A model generated the notes under the pieces. The model had not been told where the DNA came from. It saw only the letters and a list, made by a program, of their open reading frames with translations, and did not search any database. Both the position numbers and the translations under genes were made by a program. From Granulosicoccus antarcticus IMCC3135 (GTDB lineage: Bacteria; Pseudomonadota; Gammaproteobacteria; Granulosicoccales; Granulosicoccaceae): a DNA stretch of 64,000 bases. Of the stretch, positions 6,627 through 54,093 are shown piece by piece (position 1 is the first letter of the stretch; each line of letters begins with the position of its first letter). The stretch lies in the NCBI RefSeq assembly GCF_002215215.1, contig NZ_CP018632.1:7312501-7376500 (forward strand), read 5' to 3'.

Positions 6627-8267
6627 ATGTCTATTCGCTGGCCTTGGTGGTCAAGTGGTGCCATTGCATTACTGCTGATTGCCGGCCTTACGCTGCTGCC
6701 CATGGCCGCCATGTTTCTGGAGGCCGGCAGCATTGAATGGCGCAGCATTTTCGCTAATAGCTACCTGCAAAGCGTCGTCCGGTTCAGTGTATCTCAGGCA
6801 ATCCTGTCGACGCTATTGGCCTTGTTGACGGCAATTCCAGTCGCGTTGGCCTTGTCACACAAACCGGCATTTACAGGCCGCTCTCTGATCATCTCGGTGT
6901 TCAGCCTGTCTCTGGTCATACCGACCATCGTAGCGATCTACGGCATTGTTGCGGTATTTGGCCGCAGCGGCTGGTTAAATGAGTTGCTTGCATTTCTCTC
7001 AATCCAGCCCGTAGGACTCTACGGCTTGCCTGGCATTCTGATAGCGCATGTATTCTTCAACATGCCGCTGGCTACTCGCATTTTTCTAAACAGCCTGGAG
7101 ACCATTCCAGAGGATAACTGGCGTTTGTGCAAACAGTTGGGCATGAGCCCCTGGGCCATATTCCGATTTGTTGAATGGGACCGCTTGCGCAATCAACTGC
7201 CCGGATTGGCGCTACTGATATTTACTCTGTGCTTCACCAGCTTTGCCATCATCATGACTCTGGGCGGTGGACCTCGCTCAACCACTATCGAAGTCGCCAT
7301 CTACCAGGCACTGCGTTTCGAATTCGATATTACTCAAGCAGTGGCTCTGGCAAGCATCCAATTGGTAATCTGCCTTGCATTAATGGCGTTGAGTACAGTA
7401 CTGCGCCACAACAGCAGCATGGACTTTCATGCCTACATACCACTGCGTGAGAAGAAATCCGCGTCACAGGTGTACGCGGTAAAGCAAGGATTGTGGCGAG
7501 GCACTGCCTGGAACCTCATCCACTGGGGCGTCATCATCACAGCCAGTTCATTCGTTTTTCTGCCATTACTTGCCCTGACACTGTCTGCGCTCAATGGCAA
7601 GACCCTCAGCGTGTTAACCGATGCCTCGACCCTGCAGGCCATGAGCAATACCATTATCGTTTCACTATGCGCTGCCGGGCTTTCTGTGTCCCTTGCCCTG
7701 AGCCTGCTGGTCAGTACTCGTCACATGCGTATTCGACTCCATCAGGAGCGGCGTGGCCAGTGGCTGCAACTGACTGGCAACATCATCCTCGTGCTACCAC
7801 CCCTGGTTCTCGGCACTGGTCTCTTTCTACTACTGCGTCCCTTTGCCGATGTCTTCTCCATCGCCCTGGTGCTTGTGGTCATCATCAACAGCCTGATGGC
7901 CTTGCCCTTCGTGCTTCGCATACTCGATGGCCCCATGATGAGCGCAGCCAGCCAGCAGGACAGGCTTCTGCAATCTCTGGGTATACACGGCCTGAATCGC
8001 TGGCGTTTCATTGACTGGGTACAACTACGCAAACCACTGGCCTTATCACTGGCACTGGCAACGACACTCTCTGCCGGCGATCTGAGCGCTATCGCCCTGT
8101 TCGGATCTGAGCGTGTTCGGACTCTACCTTTGCTACTTTATCAACGCATGGGAAGCTATCGACTGGAAGAGGCTGCAGTGACTGCAGGGCTGCTCCTACT
8201 ACTATGCCTGACCCTGTTTGCAATAATCCAACGACTACTGGGAGGAGGCAATCATGCTGCAGCTTGA
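6627..8267 (+). CDS. thiP: Thiamine ABC transporter permease ThiP
   Basis: ThiP is the inner-membrane channel of the thiamine importer. The 546-aa protein is the usual tandem fusion of two permease modules with about a dozen hydrophobic segments. Each half has an EAA-type coupling loop: LCKQLGMSPWAIFRFVEWDRLR near residue 170 and LLQSLGIHGLNRWRFIDWVQ near residue 450. It starts 3 bp after thiB and overlaps thiQ by 14 bp, so the three are one transcription unit under the TPP riboswitch. Confidence 0.95.
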   Translation: MSIRWPWWSSGAIALLLIAGLTLLPMAAMFLEAGSIEWRSIFANSYLQSVVRFSVSQAILSTLLALLTAIPVALALSHKPAFTGRSLIISVFSLSLVIPTIVAIYGIVAVFGRSGWLNELLAFLSIQPVGLYGLPGILIAHVFFNMPLATRIFLNSLETIPEDNWRLCKQLGMSPWAIFRFVEWDRLRNQLPGLALLIFTLCFTSFAIIMTLGGGPRSTTIEVAIYQALRFEFDITQAVALASIQLVICLALMALSTVLRHNSSMDFHAYIPLREKKSASQVYAVKQGLWRGTAWNLIHWGVIITASSFVFLPLLALTLSALNGKTLSVLTDASTLQAMSNTIIVSLCAAGLSVSLALSLLVSTRHMRIRLHQERRGQWLQLTGNIILVLPPLVLGTGLFLLLRPFADVFSIALVLVVIINSLMALPFVLRILDGPMMSAASQQDRLLQSLGIHGLNRWRFIDWVQLRKPLALSLALATTLSAGDLSAIALFGSERVRTLPLLLYQRMGSYRLEEAAVTAGLLLLLCLTLFAIIQRLLGGGNHAAA

Positions 8268-26402: not shown

Positions 26403-26809
26403 ACGATATTTTCAAGCCCCTGATAGCCTCTGCAACAAGTCCCTTTCGGGTCTGTAATGGAACTACTTGAGGGCAACGCCTGTGCATTTGCACATGTTCA
26501 ATCAAGCGCAGAAGATCAACGATTTAACCCCAGCCACAAGTCGTTTTCAGCCGTATATGCGATTCGACAAACCGGTCTGAAACAAGTCGGAAATCCAGGG
26601 CTGGCTAAAAATTCAGTTTCATTTCAGGTTCAATAACTAATCTGACCCCCGTCTTGACCGACTCGTGCATGAAGTTGCATGCATCAGCAGTCGAGAATTT
26701 TACGGGCCCGTCGGGACGTCTTGACGAGAAACGATTCTGAAGATGACTGCTCGGCACCTGTTTGTGTGGGCGCGGTTGTTCCTATCAATCTGACACCACA
26801 AGAGCGCAC
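26403..26809. other. Intergenic region upstream of the GH16 gene
   Basis: About 407 bp. A 14-bp dyad, TGTGCA-TT-TGCACA at 26481-26494, resembles a regulator operator, but lies over 300 bp before the GH16 start. A frame continuous with the GH16 gene opens at TTG 26762 but lacks a ribosome site and precedes the signal peptide. No RNA gene was recognised. Confidence 0.4.
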
Positions 26810-28273
26810 ATGCGAATTACGTTGACAGCTTTGCTCCTTCTTGGTCTGGGCAGCGCGAATGTGCATGCCGACAACCAACGACCATCCACGGTCACCAATG
26901 TTCAGGCCAGCACTGTGTCTTCCAGTGCCATCCGAATCAACTGGAGCCAACCCTGGGATGATGTCGGTGTAGACGGCTACAACATCTACCGCAACGGCTC
27001 TTACTACAAGACGGTATTCAATACTACGAACTATATTGATGAGGGCGTTAGCGCGAACTCCAGCTACGAATACTCTCTTGTTGCTTTCGACCGTGCCAGA
27101 AACTATTCCTCTCAGTCTTCAAGTTCGGCCGCCAGCACCGGTGGCTCAAGTAGCAGCTCAGACAGTAGCTTCTCAGCCCAACCTGCAGCTCAGGCACGCG
27201 ATGGCAGCCCTGGTGCGCCTTCCGGATTACGTGCACAGGGTGAAGGCTCGGACAAGATTCATCTGTATTGGACAGCACCTTCTGGCACTGTGACTGGCTA
27301 CAACATTTACCGCGACGGTGGCTATTACTCCACCATCAAGGGCCGCACCGATTACACCGCCTCTTCCTTGAGCTCAGGCCGCGACTATCGCTGGCAGGTG
27401 GTCGCTTTCAACGGTAGTCAATACTCCACCAAATCCAGTGAAGTCGTGGCCCGCACGGACAGCTCTTCCTCTAGCAATGCCGTAGCCGTAGTGGCCGCAG
27501 CAGCCCCACCGCCACAACAGACTAGTGTCTCAGGCCATGTCCCGAGCGGCTACCACCAGGTCTTCAACGAAGAGTTTCAGTCGAGCAGCCTGAACGGCTC
27601 AAAATGGCAAAGCCGCTATCGCTGGGGGCCACACTGGACTATCAACAACGAACAACAGTTCTATGTTGACAACATCAATGATCCCAACTTCGGTCATTCT
27701 CCTTTCGAATTTGATGGTGAGAACATGACCATCACGGCAACACGCACGCCGGATCATTTGCGCAGCAAGGCGAACAACAAGGATTACCTCTCTGGCACTC
27801 TGACTACCTATGGCAAATTCAAGATGCGCTATGGCTACGTGGAAATGCGTGCACGCATGCCCAAGGGTAAAGGCCTGTGGCCTGCCTTCTGGTTACTGCA
27901 CAATCAGGAAAATGACAAGCGACCTGAGATCGATGTTGTGGAAATGCTGGGCGACACCAGCAACAAGGTTTACCAGACCTACCACTATTTTGAAAACTGG
28001 AATTTGCGCTCAACACCCAGCTATGAATATTGGGGTTCCGACTTTTCACAGGATTTCCATACTTTTGGCATGAAGTGGGAGCCAGGGCGTATCACCTGGT
28101 ATGTTGATGGCAACGCCACCAACTCACACTCCAGCGGCAACGTCGCTTCAGAAGAGATGTACCTGCTGGTCAACCTGGCGGTCGGCGGCTCCTGGCCTGG
28201 CAACCCTGACGGCAGCACCTCTTTTCCTGCACGATTCACGATCGACTATATTCGAGCTTATAGCCCTGACTGA
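26810..28273 (+). CDS. Secreted GH16 glycoside hydrolase with two FN3 domains
   Basis: A secreted beta-glucanase-type enzyme, 487 aa. The signal peptide ends NVHA at residue 20. Two fibronectin type III domains (about 25-105 and 135-215) share the phrase GYNIYR and are joined by Ser-rich linkers; an Ala/Pro linker leads to the GH16 domain from about residue 245. The catalytic ExDxxE is PEIDVVEMLG (Glu373, Asp375, Glu378), preceded by the GYVEMRARMPKGKGLWPAFWLL strand. Laminarin, agar or carrageenan-type glycans are possible substrates. A 163-bp palindromic element lies between its stop and a plausible terminator. Confidence 0.93.
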   Translation: MRITLTALLLLGLGSANVHADNQRPSTVTNVQASTVSSSAIRINWSQPWDDVGVDGYNIYRNGSYYKTVFNTTNYIDEGVSANSSYEYSLVAFDRARNYSSQSSSSAASTGGSSSSSDSSFSAQPAAQARDGSPGAPSGLRAQGEGSDKIHLYWTAPSGTVTGYNIYRDGGYYSTIKGRTDYTASSLSSGRDYRWQVVAFNGSQYSTKSSEVVARTDSSSSSNAVAVVAAAAPPPQQTSVSGHVPSGYHQVFNEEFQSSSLNGSKWQSRYRWGPHWTINNEQQFYVDNINDPNFGHSPFEFDGENMTITATRTPDHLRSKANNKDYLSGTLTTYGKFKMRYGYVEMRARMPKGKGLWPAFWLLHNQENDKRPEIDVVEMLGDTSNKVYQTYHYFENWNLRSTPSYEYWGSDFSQDFHTFGMKWEPGRITWYVDGNATNSHSSGNVASEEMYLLVNLAVGGSWPGNPDGSTSFPARFTIDYIRAYSPD

Positions 28274-28287
28274 ACTGTAGCTGCAAG

Positions 28288-28450
28288 TTAGGGGTCGTGA
28301 AATAATTAACTATACTTTTCGGTTGGTCCTGCGCCTGCCCGGCAAGGCGTGAGGAGGGCGAATAGCGGGCTATTCAACCGACAAACAACGCAGAAGGGCA
28401 GGATGCAGGGGCGACTGAAAAGTATAGTTTATTGTTTCACGATCCCTTAG
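28288..28450. mobile_element. MITE-like palindromic repeat element, full copy
   Basis: About 163 bp with long imperfect terminal inverted repeats. The left end reads TTAGGGGTCGTGAAATAA and the right end, reverse complemented, CTAAGGGATCGTGAAACAA; both continue through AACTATACTTTTC, with more inner homology (CCTGC, TGCCC). A nested 7-bp hairpin (GAATAGC-GG-GCTATTC) lies inside. There is no open reading frame. Its size, palindromic ends and lack of coding sequence suggest a miniature inverted-repeat element mobilised in trans. It begins 15 bp after the GH16 stop. Two shorter relatives lie near 43.96 and 49.35 kb. Confidence 0.8.
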
Positions 28451-28464
28451 CTTATGATTTACCA

Positions 28465-28485
28465 AGCGGCCTACGGGCCGCTTTT
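28465..28485 (+). terminator. Rho-independent terminator downstream of the GH16 gene
   Basis: AGCGGCC and GGCCGCT form a 7-bp stem with loop TACG followed by TTTT. The palindromic element separates it from the GH16 stop codon, consistent with insertion of that element into the original 3' untranslated region. Confidence 0.7.
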
Positions 28486-28626
28486 CAGTTGCCTTCAGAA
28501 AACCAACGCCACTTTGTCCAAACACTGCTCAAAGCTCGACTAAAGGCTTGTATTAGACAGGTTTGTGACTTCCATTCGGCTCTTGAGGTACGGTGACGTT
28601 ACACTGCAAAGAAAAAGACTTTCAAC

Positions 28627-43954: not shown

Positions 43955-43994
43955 ACAGGGCTCGTGAAATCAGCAATTGATTCACGAGCCCTCA
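43955..43994. mobile_element. Minimal copy of the palindromic element, doubling as a terminator hairpin
   Basis: A perfect 12-bp stem, AGGGCTCGTGAA (43957-43968) with TTCACGAGCCCT (43981-43992), has a 12-base loop. The arms match both ends of the 28.3-kb element (AGGGGTCGTGAAAT; ATTGTTTCACGATCCCT) with one or two changes each, so it looks like an internal deletion derivative keeping only the tips. It sits between the convergent HupE-like and DUF1513 genes, 41 and 5 bp from their stops, and could block read-through from both sides. Confidence 0.65.
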
Positions 43995-49349: not shown

Positions 49350-49393
49350 AAGAGGTCGTGAAACAATCAAGTATCCATTTCAGTCGCCCCTTA
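49350..49393. mobile_element. Solitary end of the palindromic element
   Basis: About 44 bp, TAAGAGGTCGTGAAACAATC continuing to TTTCAGTCGCCCC, matches the right terminal segment of the 28.3-kb element (reverse complemented) at most positions. The other end is absent. It starts 18 bp after the stop of the threonine dehydratase gene (minus strand), another 3' flank location like the two other copies. Confidence 0.65.
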
Positions 49394-53506: not shown

Positions 53507-53930
53507 TCCGAATCTGAAACTTTTACTGGTCGAAGACAACGACCTTGATGTGTTCATGGTGCAACGCCTGATGCGGCGTCTGAATCTTGATTTCCCGATC
53601 ATTCATGCAAAAAATGGTGAAGAAGCGCTGGCGATTCTACGCCCCGATCCGAATGCCTGCACTCTGGTGCCCCCATTCGTCATGATTCTGGATATCAACA
53701 TGCCTCGCATGAATGGTTTCGAGCTGCTGGACGAGCTGGGCGATGACCCCATGCTGGCCCAGATCCCGATCTATATCGTGTCGACATCTACACGCCAGAA
53801 AGACAAGGACAAGGCCATGACGTACAGCATACGCGGGTATGTCGTCAAGCCGGTTACCCAAACAGTCTTGCTGGAAATACTGGATAGTACAGACGAGATG
53901 ACAGACACACCAATTTCCCGGCAAGGTTAG
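53499..53930 (+). CDS. Single-domain response regulator (Rcp1-like)
   Basis: A stand-alone CheY-fold receiver of about 143 aa. Acidic pocket residues are E12-D13 (LLVEDNDLD), the phospho-Asp is D65 in MILDINMPRMNGFELL, then Thr/Ser in IVSTS and Lys in YVVKPV. The insertion around PDPNACTLVPPF is typical of Rcp-type partners of CHASE and phytochrome kinases. ATG 53499 has an AGG site eight bases upstream; ATG 53466 is also possible. Either start overlaps the kinase gene, so the two are coupled. There is no output domain. Confidence 0.93.
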   Translation: MPNPNLKLLLVEDNDLDVFMVQRLMRRLNLDFPIIHAKNGEEALAILRPDPNACTLVPPFVMILDINMPRMNGFELLDELGDDPMLAQIPIYIVSTSTRQKDKDKAMTYSIRGYVVKPVTQTVLLEILDSTDEMTDTPISRQG

Positions 53931-54093
53931 GAATCGCTGATTATCTCACGAGACATTACTCAGACACTGACCTGCCCGGTCGTCAAAGAGGGTGCAGAAT
54001 GCCCGGCATTCACACCGACAAATGGATGATGAGCTGCAACACCTGCTTGCGACACAGTAGAATGCACAAAACCTGACACTCAAGGAAATCTCA

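Follow-up and report, generated by a model that had tools for sequence, protein, structure and literature searches.

Small dispersed repeats of cyanobacteria, about 20-27 bp long and thought to be mobile, were reportedly described by Elhai in 2008. Bacterial MITEs (e.g., MITEAba12 and the Coxiella MITEs) are also short and non-coding. Among the described systems, REPINs are known miniature mobile DNA (PMC3116915), and the insertion sequence (IS) family ISAzo13 makes 3-bp duplications (PMC10045372). The element considered here stands in a window of 64,000 nucleotides, which is the whole stretch of DNA analysed. Very probably it is a non-autonomous MITE of the ISAzo13 type that would be moved in trans by an ISAzo13-type transposase, because it exists in many copies with TWA duplications, because ISAzo13 transposases lie between similar ends in the same genome, and because its ends match a signature built from foreign ISs of this family.

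The palindrome at 28288-28450 was confirmed, with arms of 43 nt at 28290-28332 and 28405-28447 that are 84% complementary and are parted by a 72-nt spacer. For example, AACTATACTTTTC at 28308-28320 returns as a reversed copy at 28417-28429. The internal hairpin, GAATAGC-GG-GCTATTC, is kept in other copies with changes, mostly at two central bases. As DNA, the segment 28270-28470 folds at -49 kcal/mol, compared with -24.5 (sd 3.0) in 200 shuffles, none of which was as good (z -8.2). The exact limits were set by aligning the flanks of the copies, which places the element at 28291-28446 (156 bp) between two TTA trinucleotides. It has no coding capacity, no ORF being listed inside it at the listing threshold of at least 100 aa. 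A sequence-only reading of this DNA had proposed the imperfect terminal inverted repeats, the 7-bp hairpin and the lack of coding capacity, and these features are indeed present. The same reading placed the insertion 15 bp after the stop codon of a GH16 gene; the element does adjoin this gene, and the distance from its TGA stop (28271-28273) is 17 nt. The features in the window are as follows.

28291-28446, + strand: putative ISAzo13-type MITE of group A, non-coding (27 genome copies, flank alignment, arms, fold z -8.2)
28288-28290, + strand: left TTA target-site duplication (identical TWA on both sides in 27/27 copies)
28447-28449, + strand: right TTA target-site duplication (flank alignment of copies)
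28291-28313, + strand: left end (T-end), 23 nt, GGGGTCGTGAAATAATTAACTAT (19/23 identical to the left end of the L204 IS; best interior position of three ISs 15/23)
28424-28446, - strand: right end (C-end), reading inward GGGATCGTGAAACAATAAACTAT in the window copy (copy limits; C-type end in 17/18 of the 19-bp units)
28360-28375, no strand: central hairpin GAATAGC-GG-GCTATTC (hairpin search; copies)
26762-28273, + strand: neighbouring GH16 glycoside hydrolase gene, ending 17 nt upstream (Pfam Glyco_hydro_16 PF00722, E 7e-27)
28465-28486, + strand: GC-rich hairpin AGCGGCC-TACG-GGCCGCT followed by TTTC, parted from the GH16 stop by the element (by eye; scan silent)
43958-43991, no strand: 34-bp palindromic relative GGGCTCGTGAA...TTCACGAGCCC, with flanks ACA/TCA, which form no perfect duplication (end-match loci)
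49352-49390, + strand: 39-bp one-sided remnant in which the element end runs straight into CCCC-TTA, with TAA before it and TTA after it, not a direct duplication (end-match loci)

The element had also been said to separate the GH16 gene from a terminator. It does stand between the stop codon and the hairpin 3' of it, which is terminator-like by eye; the terminator scan reported nothing at 28465-28486. Two derivatives had been mentioned without their places, and two related short pieces are found in the window, at 43958-43991 and 49352-49390. The latter may have arisen by an internal deletion between runs of CCCC. At about 53,930-53,960 a pair of TTA trinucleotides encloses GGAATCGCTGATTATCTCACGAGACA, a further candidate that is weak and degenerate.

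The 7.78-Mb single-contig genome holds 27 full-length copies, ten at 98-100% identity to the window copy and 17 at 80-93%. For this count 40 of 85 candidates were scored, and inspection of the end-pattern list by eye gave no further end pair at MITE distance. The family proposed by the sequence-only reading is therefore real, and the single copy without relatives that it had named as the contrary outcome did not occur. The target duplications that it suggested looking for are likewise present at every copy: identical TWA trinucleotides (TTA/TTA or TAA/TAA) flank 27/27 (p 1.5e-8 for a direct match if the middle base is free). Because these repeats are direct and not inverted, they are target duplications and not an extension of the palindrome. 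The target extends over five bases and is exactly CTWAG in ten copies; 16 copies deviate from this at one outer base and one copy at both. With inverted repeats, dispersed copies, a target duplication at each copy and no transposase gene, the element has the make-up of a MITE.

By eye the copies fall into group A (GGGGTCG ends, L001-L011) and group B (GGGATCG ends, L012-L027). Close to one end, the four copies L024-L027 are longer by a block of 14 bp that reads GGGGACGCCCAGTC or similar. The near identity of ten copies points to recent activity of the MITE. Some copies are close neighbours; a group A and a group B MITE, both full, lie about 170 bp apart at L003/L012 (G000 3,354,573-3,355,067), and at L005 (G000 ~342,433-342,631) a full MITE adjoins a 37-bp palindrome with a TAA common to both, i.e., two side-by-side insertions.

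In a profile search, PF07592 had eight matches in the home genome (best E 1.4e-136) and none in 26 other genomes of the genus. Three representative transposases score 551-560 bits with the NCBIfam model transpos_ISAzo13 (NF033519; cut-off 200), and their similarity to the IS630 model is below its cut-off. The home ISAzo13 ISs are 1,307-1,329 bp long, and GGGCTTGTGAATTAATTAACTAG is an example of their ends. Of the seven full-length transposase genes, six (L198-L201, L203, and L204) lie between inverted ends with direct TAA/TTA duplications, so that the MITE has the same TWA duplication as these ISs. The seventh, L202, has both IS ends, but its flanks differ (TAA left, TTA right) and so form no direct duplication; no ends were recovered at the partial transposase locus L205. 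L198-L202 are five copies of one 1,329-bp IS. Since their ends are identical and their profile scores nearly equal, this IS has probably been active recently.

A transposase with matching ends had been suggested as a further check, and the ISAzo13 transposases of this genome do lie between similar ends. The MITE ends share up to 19/23 positions with the left IS ends at L203 and L204 and 12-14/23 with the ends of the five-copy IS, and the maximum at 7,392 interior positions of three ISs was 15/23. An IS with exactly the ends of the MITE was not found among the home ISs or among 38 end pairs from 80 foreign loci, the best being 19/23. Outside its ends, the MITE had no match better than E 0.07 to three home ISs, so that none of these gave rise to it by simple internal deletion. 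From the likeness of the ends we infer that home ISAzo13 transposases would move the MITE, those of the L203 and L204 type having the most similar ends.

Paired ends and a 3-bp duplication were recovered at 38 of the 80 foreign ISAzo13 loci, the duplication being TWA in 34 of the 38. Note that at least 12/18 identities and a 3-bp duplication were conditions for these pairs and TWA was not, that L276, L278, and L288 are in doubtful register, and that two sets, L276/L278 and L291/L292, repeat each other. The MITE ends agree with the signature GGNNNYGTNAANAAATAA, and none of 5,000 shuffles was as good. This signature was built from 23 of the 38 pairs and is somewhat idealised, since 15 were omitted by hand: those not starting with GG, those with a non-TWA duplication, the repeat L292, L332 at a contig edge, and L269, L330, L333, and L337, which have GG and TWA.

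An IS partner was also sought through 13 places with solo end matches. The readable ones were short palindromes, 19-mers or fragments, except for L042/L204 (G000 ~6,877,364-6,878,731). There a complete 1,307-bp ISAzo13 IS with a TAA duplication adjoins the right half of an old MITE, whose left half was not recognised; it looks as if the IS had inserted into an old MITE copy. Another IS of about 1,582 bp (L061-L064) has a 460-aa frame with a DDE_Tnp_1 match, ends CCTGAATATTTCA and 4-bp CTAG/CTAA/TTAG duplications, and at L063 it adjoins one short palindrome.

Outside the home genome, full-length copies are found in one of the 26 other genus genomes, G026, which has three at 85-86% identity and one fragment. 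The element has no match in phage and plasmid collections, and a search of viral contigs with the element end and the 19-mer described below gave nothing. The similar palindromes in other gammaproteobacteria that the sequence-only reading mentioned are so far not supported by the 26 genus genomes and these collections. A short palindromic pattern has 41 matches in the home genome against none in a reversed control, and in the genomes that carry the foreign ISAzo13 loci, covered for 46 of the 80, it has five matches (in four genomes) against 11 in the control. For this reason the abundance of short forms appears, as far as tested and within these genomes, to be peculiar to this lineage. A similar palindrome, 38 bp long and flanked by a TGA duplication, is present in the relative G025 (L191), and therefore short forms also occur outside the home genome. 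In the three relatives used for the empty-site comparison below, the exact end TNAGGGNTCGTGAAA was counted 0, 1 and 3 times, never as a 19-mer.

The ends of the MITE (GGGNTCGTGAAAYAATTAACTAT or near, inward from both sides) are of the kind seen on ISAzo13-family ISs, and DDE transposases encoded in the same genome may cut it out or copy it. Insertion into CTWAG-like sites would lead to duplication of the middle TWA. Many such sites would be harmless, because CTWAG contains the stops TAA and TAG and an insertion at such a stop codon would regenerate it. Over time the palindromic copies would lose their middle, the commonest short product being a 19-bp sequence.

Short forms are numerous in this genome. 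TWAGGGNTCGTGAAA with at most one mismatch occurs at least 133 times, compared with four in a control, and a full MITE can count twice. Some short units of about 32-38 bp consist of two ends set directly against each other (e.g., L033, L034, L035, and L090), and there are single units of 26 bp (L116), 22 bp (G000 5,835,616-5,835,637), and 18 bp (L127). The 19-bp class, GGGATCGTGAAACAATCCC, has 18 members (13 exact, five with one mismatch; control 0); each of the remaining short classes found is represented by one or two copies. The 19-mer joins positions 1-16 of one end to the final three nucleotides (CCC) of the other, with a shared AT usable at the join. Its flanks are perfect direct TWA duplications in 14/18 cases, an inverted TWA in one, and mismatched in three; among the 15 with TWA on both sides, 14 are direct repeats (p 0.001). 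The C-type end is used in 17/18, even though a MITE has one C-end and one T-end (p 1.4e-4 if equal use is assumed). Among the five variants, two are the same as end variants already known from MITEs, namely L175 (T-end) and L176 (GGGG, without duplication). Short forms with at least 13 nt of the end of the five-copy home IS were not found in the genome.

Eight of the 18 19-mers are exactly at a stop codon, the gene lying to the right of the 19-mer in six and to the left in two when oriented to it, and nine of the 18 lie between convergent genes, as judged with a crude longest-ORF caller. The excess at stop codons over the MITEs (8/18 vs 5/27) does not reach significance (p 0.09). The window contains 12 CTWAG, two at stops, seven inside genes and three between genes. 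The placement of the 19-mers can follow from this target, since insertions at stops would regenerate the stop and those inside genes would be harmful. Empty sites were sought with joined flanks for the eight stop-codon sites in three of the 26 relatives. Of 25 matches, 22 were aligned (the weak L258-L260 were omitted), and the 19-mer is absent from all 22 orthologous gene ends, in up to three relatives per site. L165 is the one site with a clean alignment over the junction in each of the three relatives; at the other sites the sequence beyond the gene has diverged, so that only absence can be stated.

The reading preferred here, which takes about half of our confidence, is that the 19-mers are excision or deletion scars at sites that once held the full element. 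They could be formed by a transposase cut followed by repair at the 2-base AT overlap, which predicts an 8-bp member TWAGGGATCCCTWA, or by palindrome-driven slippage. In agreement with scars, the ISAzo13 end profile gives the far side of the 19-mer a score of -0.5, far below the 16.2 of a MITE end, and other one-sided remnants exist (the 26-bp L116 and the one at 49352-49390), the joins of which can be explained by overlaps of CCCC and ATC. That L175 and L176 equal known MITE end variants suggests more than one origin of the 19-mers. It is also conceivable, though somewhat less probable, that GGGATCGTGAAACAATCCC is itself mobile and is inserted by an enzyme such as the ISAzo13 transposase, in which case the 156-bp element would be no more than its source. 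Mobility would account for its copy number, its direct duplications, its absence from orthologous gene ends at eight sites and the rarity of the other short classes. It would explain better than scars the 17:1 preference for the C-type end, which looks like a single founder, the excess of a favoured join with a 2-base overlap over joins with longer overlaps, and the missing scars of the five-copy IS. Moreover, the outer eight bases of the far side, GGGATTGT, fit the outer eight positions of the signature and so resemble an outer ISAzo13 end; 13 of 5,000 shuffles of the same letters were as good. However, two transposase-bound ends in a DDE transpososome need more than 19 bp, a length that has no room for them, and the far side is without the inner AAATAA part. 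The variants that resemble separate origins and the four copies with inverted or mismatched flanks also speak against a mobile unit. The rest of the probability goes to other routes of origin.

For the full element, three further explanations were weighed. A MITE moved by a transposase of the IS5/PIF-Harbinger type would suit the three-base duplication, since PIF/Harbinger typically duplicates TWA and the IS1031 group TNA. DDE_Tnp_1 (PF01609) has 43 matches in the home genome; 30 loci were examined, of which 24 were represented by their best three end pairs each and six gave none, and no listed pair resembled GGGNTCGTGAAA or was otherwise a fitting partner. The ISAzo13 ISs fit both end and duplication, and an IS5-type origin is accordingly held to be very improbable. 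About as improbable is a selected 3'-end signal, i.e., an RNA hairpin or terminator and not a mobile element. The strong fold and the frequent position of 19-mers at stop codons and between convergent genes would agree with such a role. Against it are the target duplications and the lineage-restricted copies, the absence at eight aligned orthologous 3' ends, a siting that can follow from the target, and an Rfam result in which the sole match (26 bits) is below its gathering score (74 bits). Least probable of all is a REP/REPIN-type palindrome spread by a RAYT (IS200-like) tyrosine transposase. REPs and REPINs are also short, palindromic, mostly intergenic and present in many copies. Single-strand IS200-like transposition makes no 3-bp direct duplication, which every full copy here has, and the GGG...CCC ends resemble those of DDE ISAzo13 elements. 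REPs are said to be marked by a GTAG or CGTC tag at one end; neither tag is present at the ends of the element, which are GGGG...TCCC.

MITEs and ISAzo13 are both already known, and the element looks like a new ISAzo13-type MITE family. No link between ISAzo13 and a MITE was found in the parts of the open literature searched, where a single paper mentions both without connecting them, and the family seems to be undescribed there. The unusual part is the 19-bp class with target duplications. Here a near-minimal sequence with target duplications occurs in a genome that also encodes a named transposase family, which makes the spread of small repeats, by movement or as scars, testable. If the 19-mers are scars, they record past insertions and show how ISAzo13 elements leave DNA. 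If they are mobile, an ISAzo13 (DDE) transposase, or host repair together with it, would disperse one recognition end plus the tip of the other, which would provide a way for very small repeats to disperse. To our knowledge, a mobile unit of 19 bp would rank among the smallest transposable units described.

Compared with known systems, the element is closest to the ISAzo13 ISs (PF07592; NF033519), with which it shares the end signature GG-NNN-YGT-N-AA-N-AAATAA and the 3-bp TWA duplication. Unlike them it has no transposase gene, is 156 bp long instead of about 1,300 bp, agrees with their ends at no more than 19/23 positions, and has a middle without a significant match to three home ISs. REPINs and REPs are short palindromic repeats as well (PMC3116915), but they are linked to RAYT, while here 3-bp duplications and DDE-type ends are found. 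Like MITEAba12 and the Coxiella MITEs, the element is short, non-coding and multicopy with inverted ends; it differs in its ISAzo13-type end and in the ladder of forms down to 19 bp. Finally, the cyanobacterial small dispersed repeats are of similar size to the short forms and are likewise thought mobile, whereas here a transposase family and target duplications can be linked to the short sequence.
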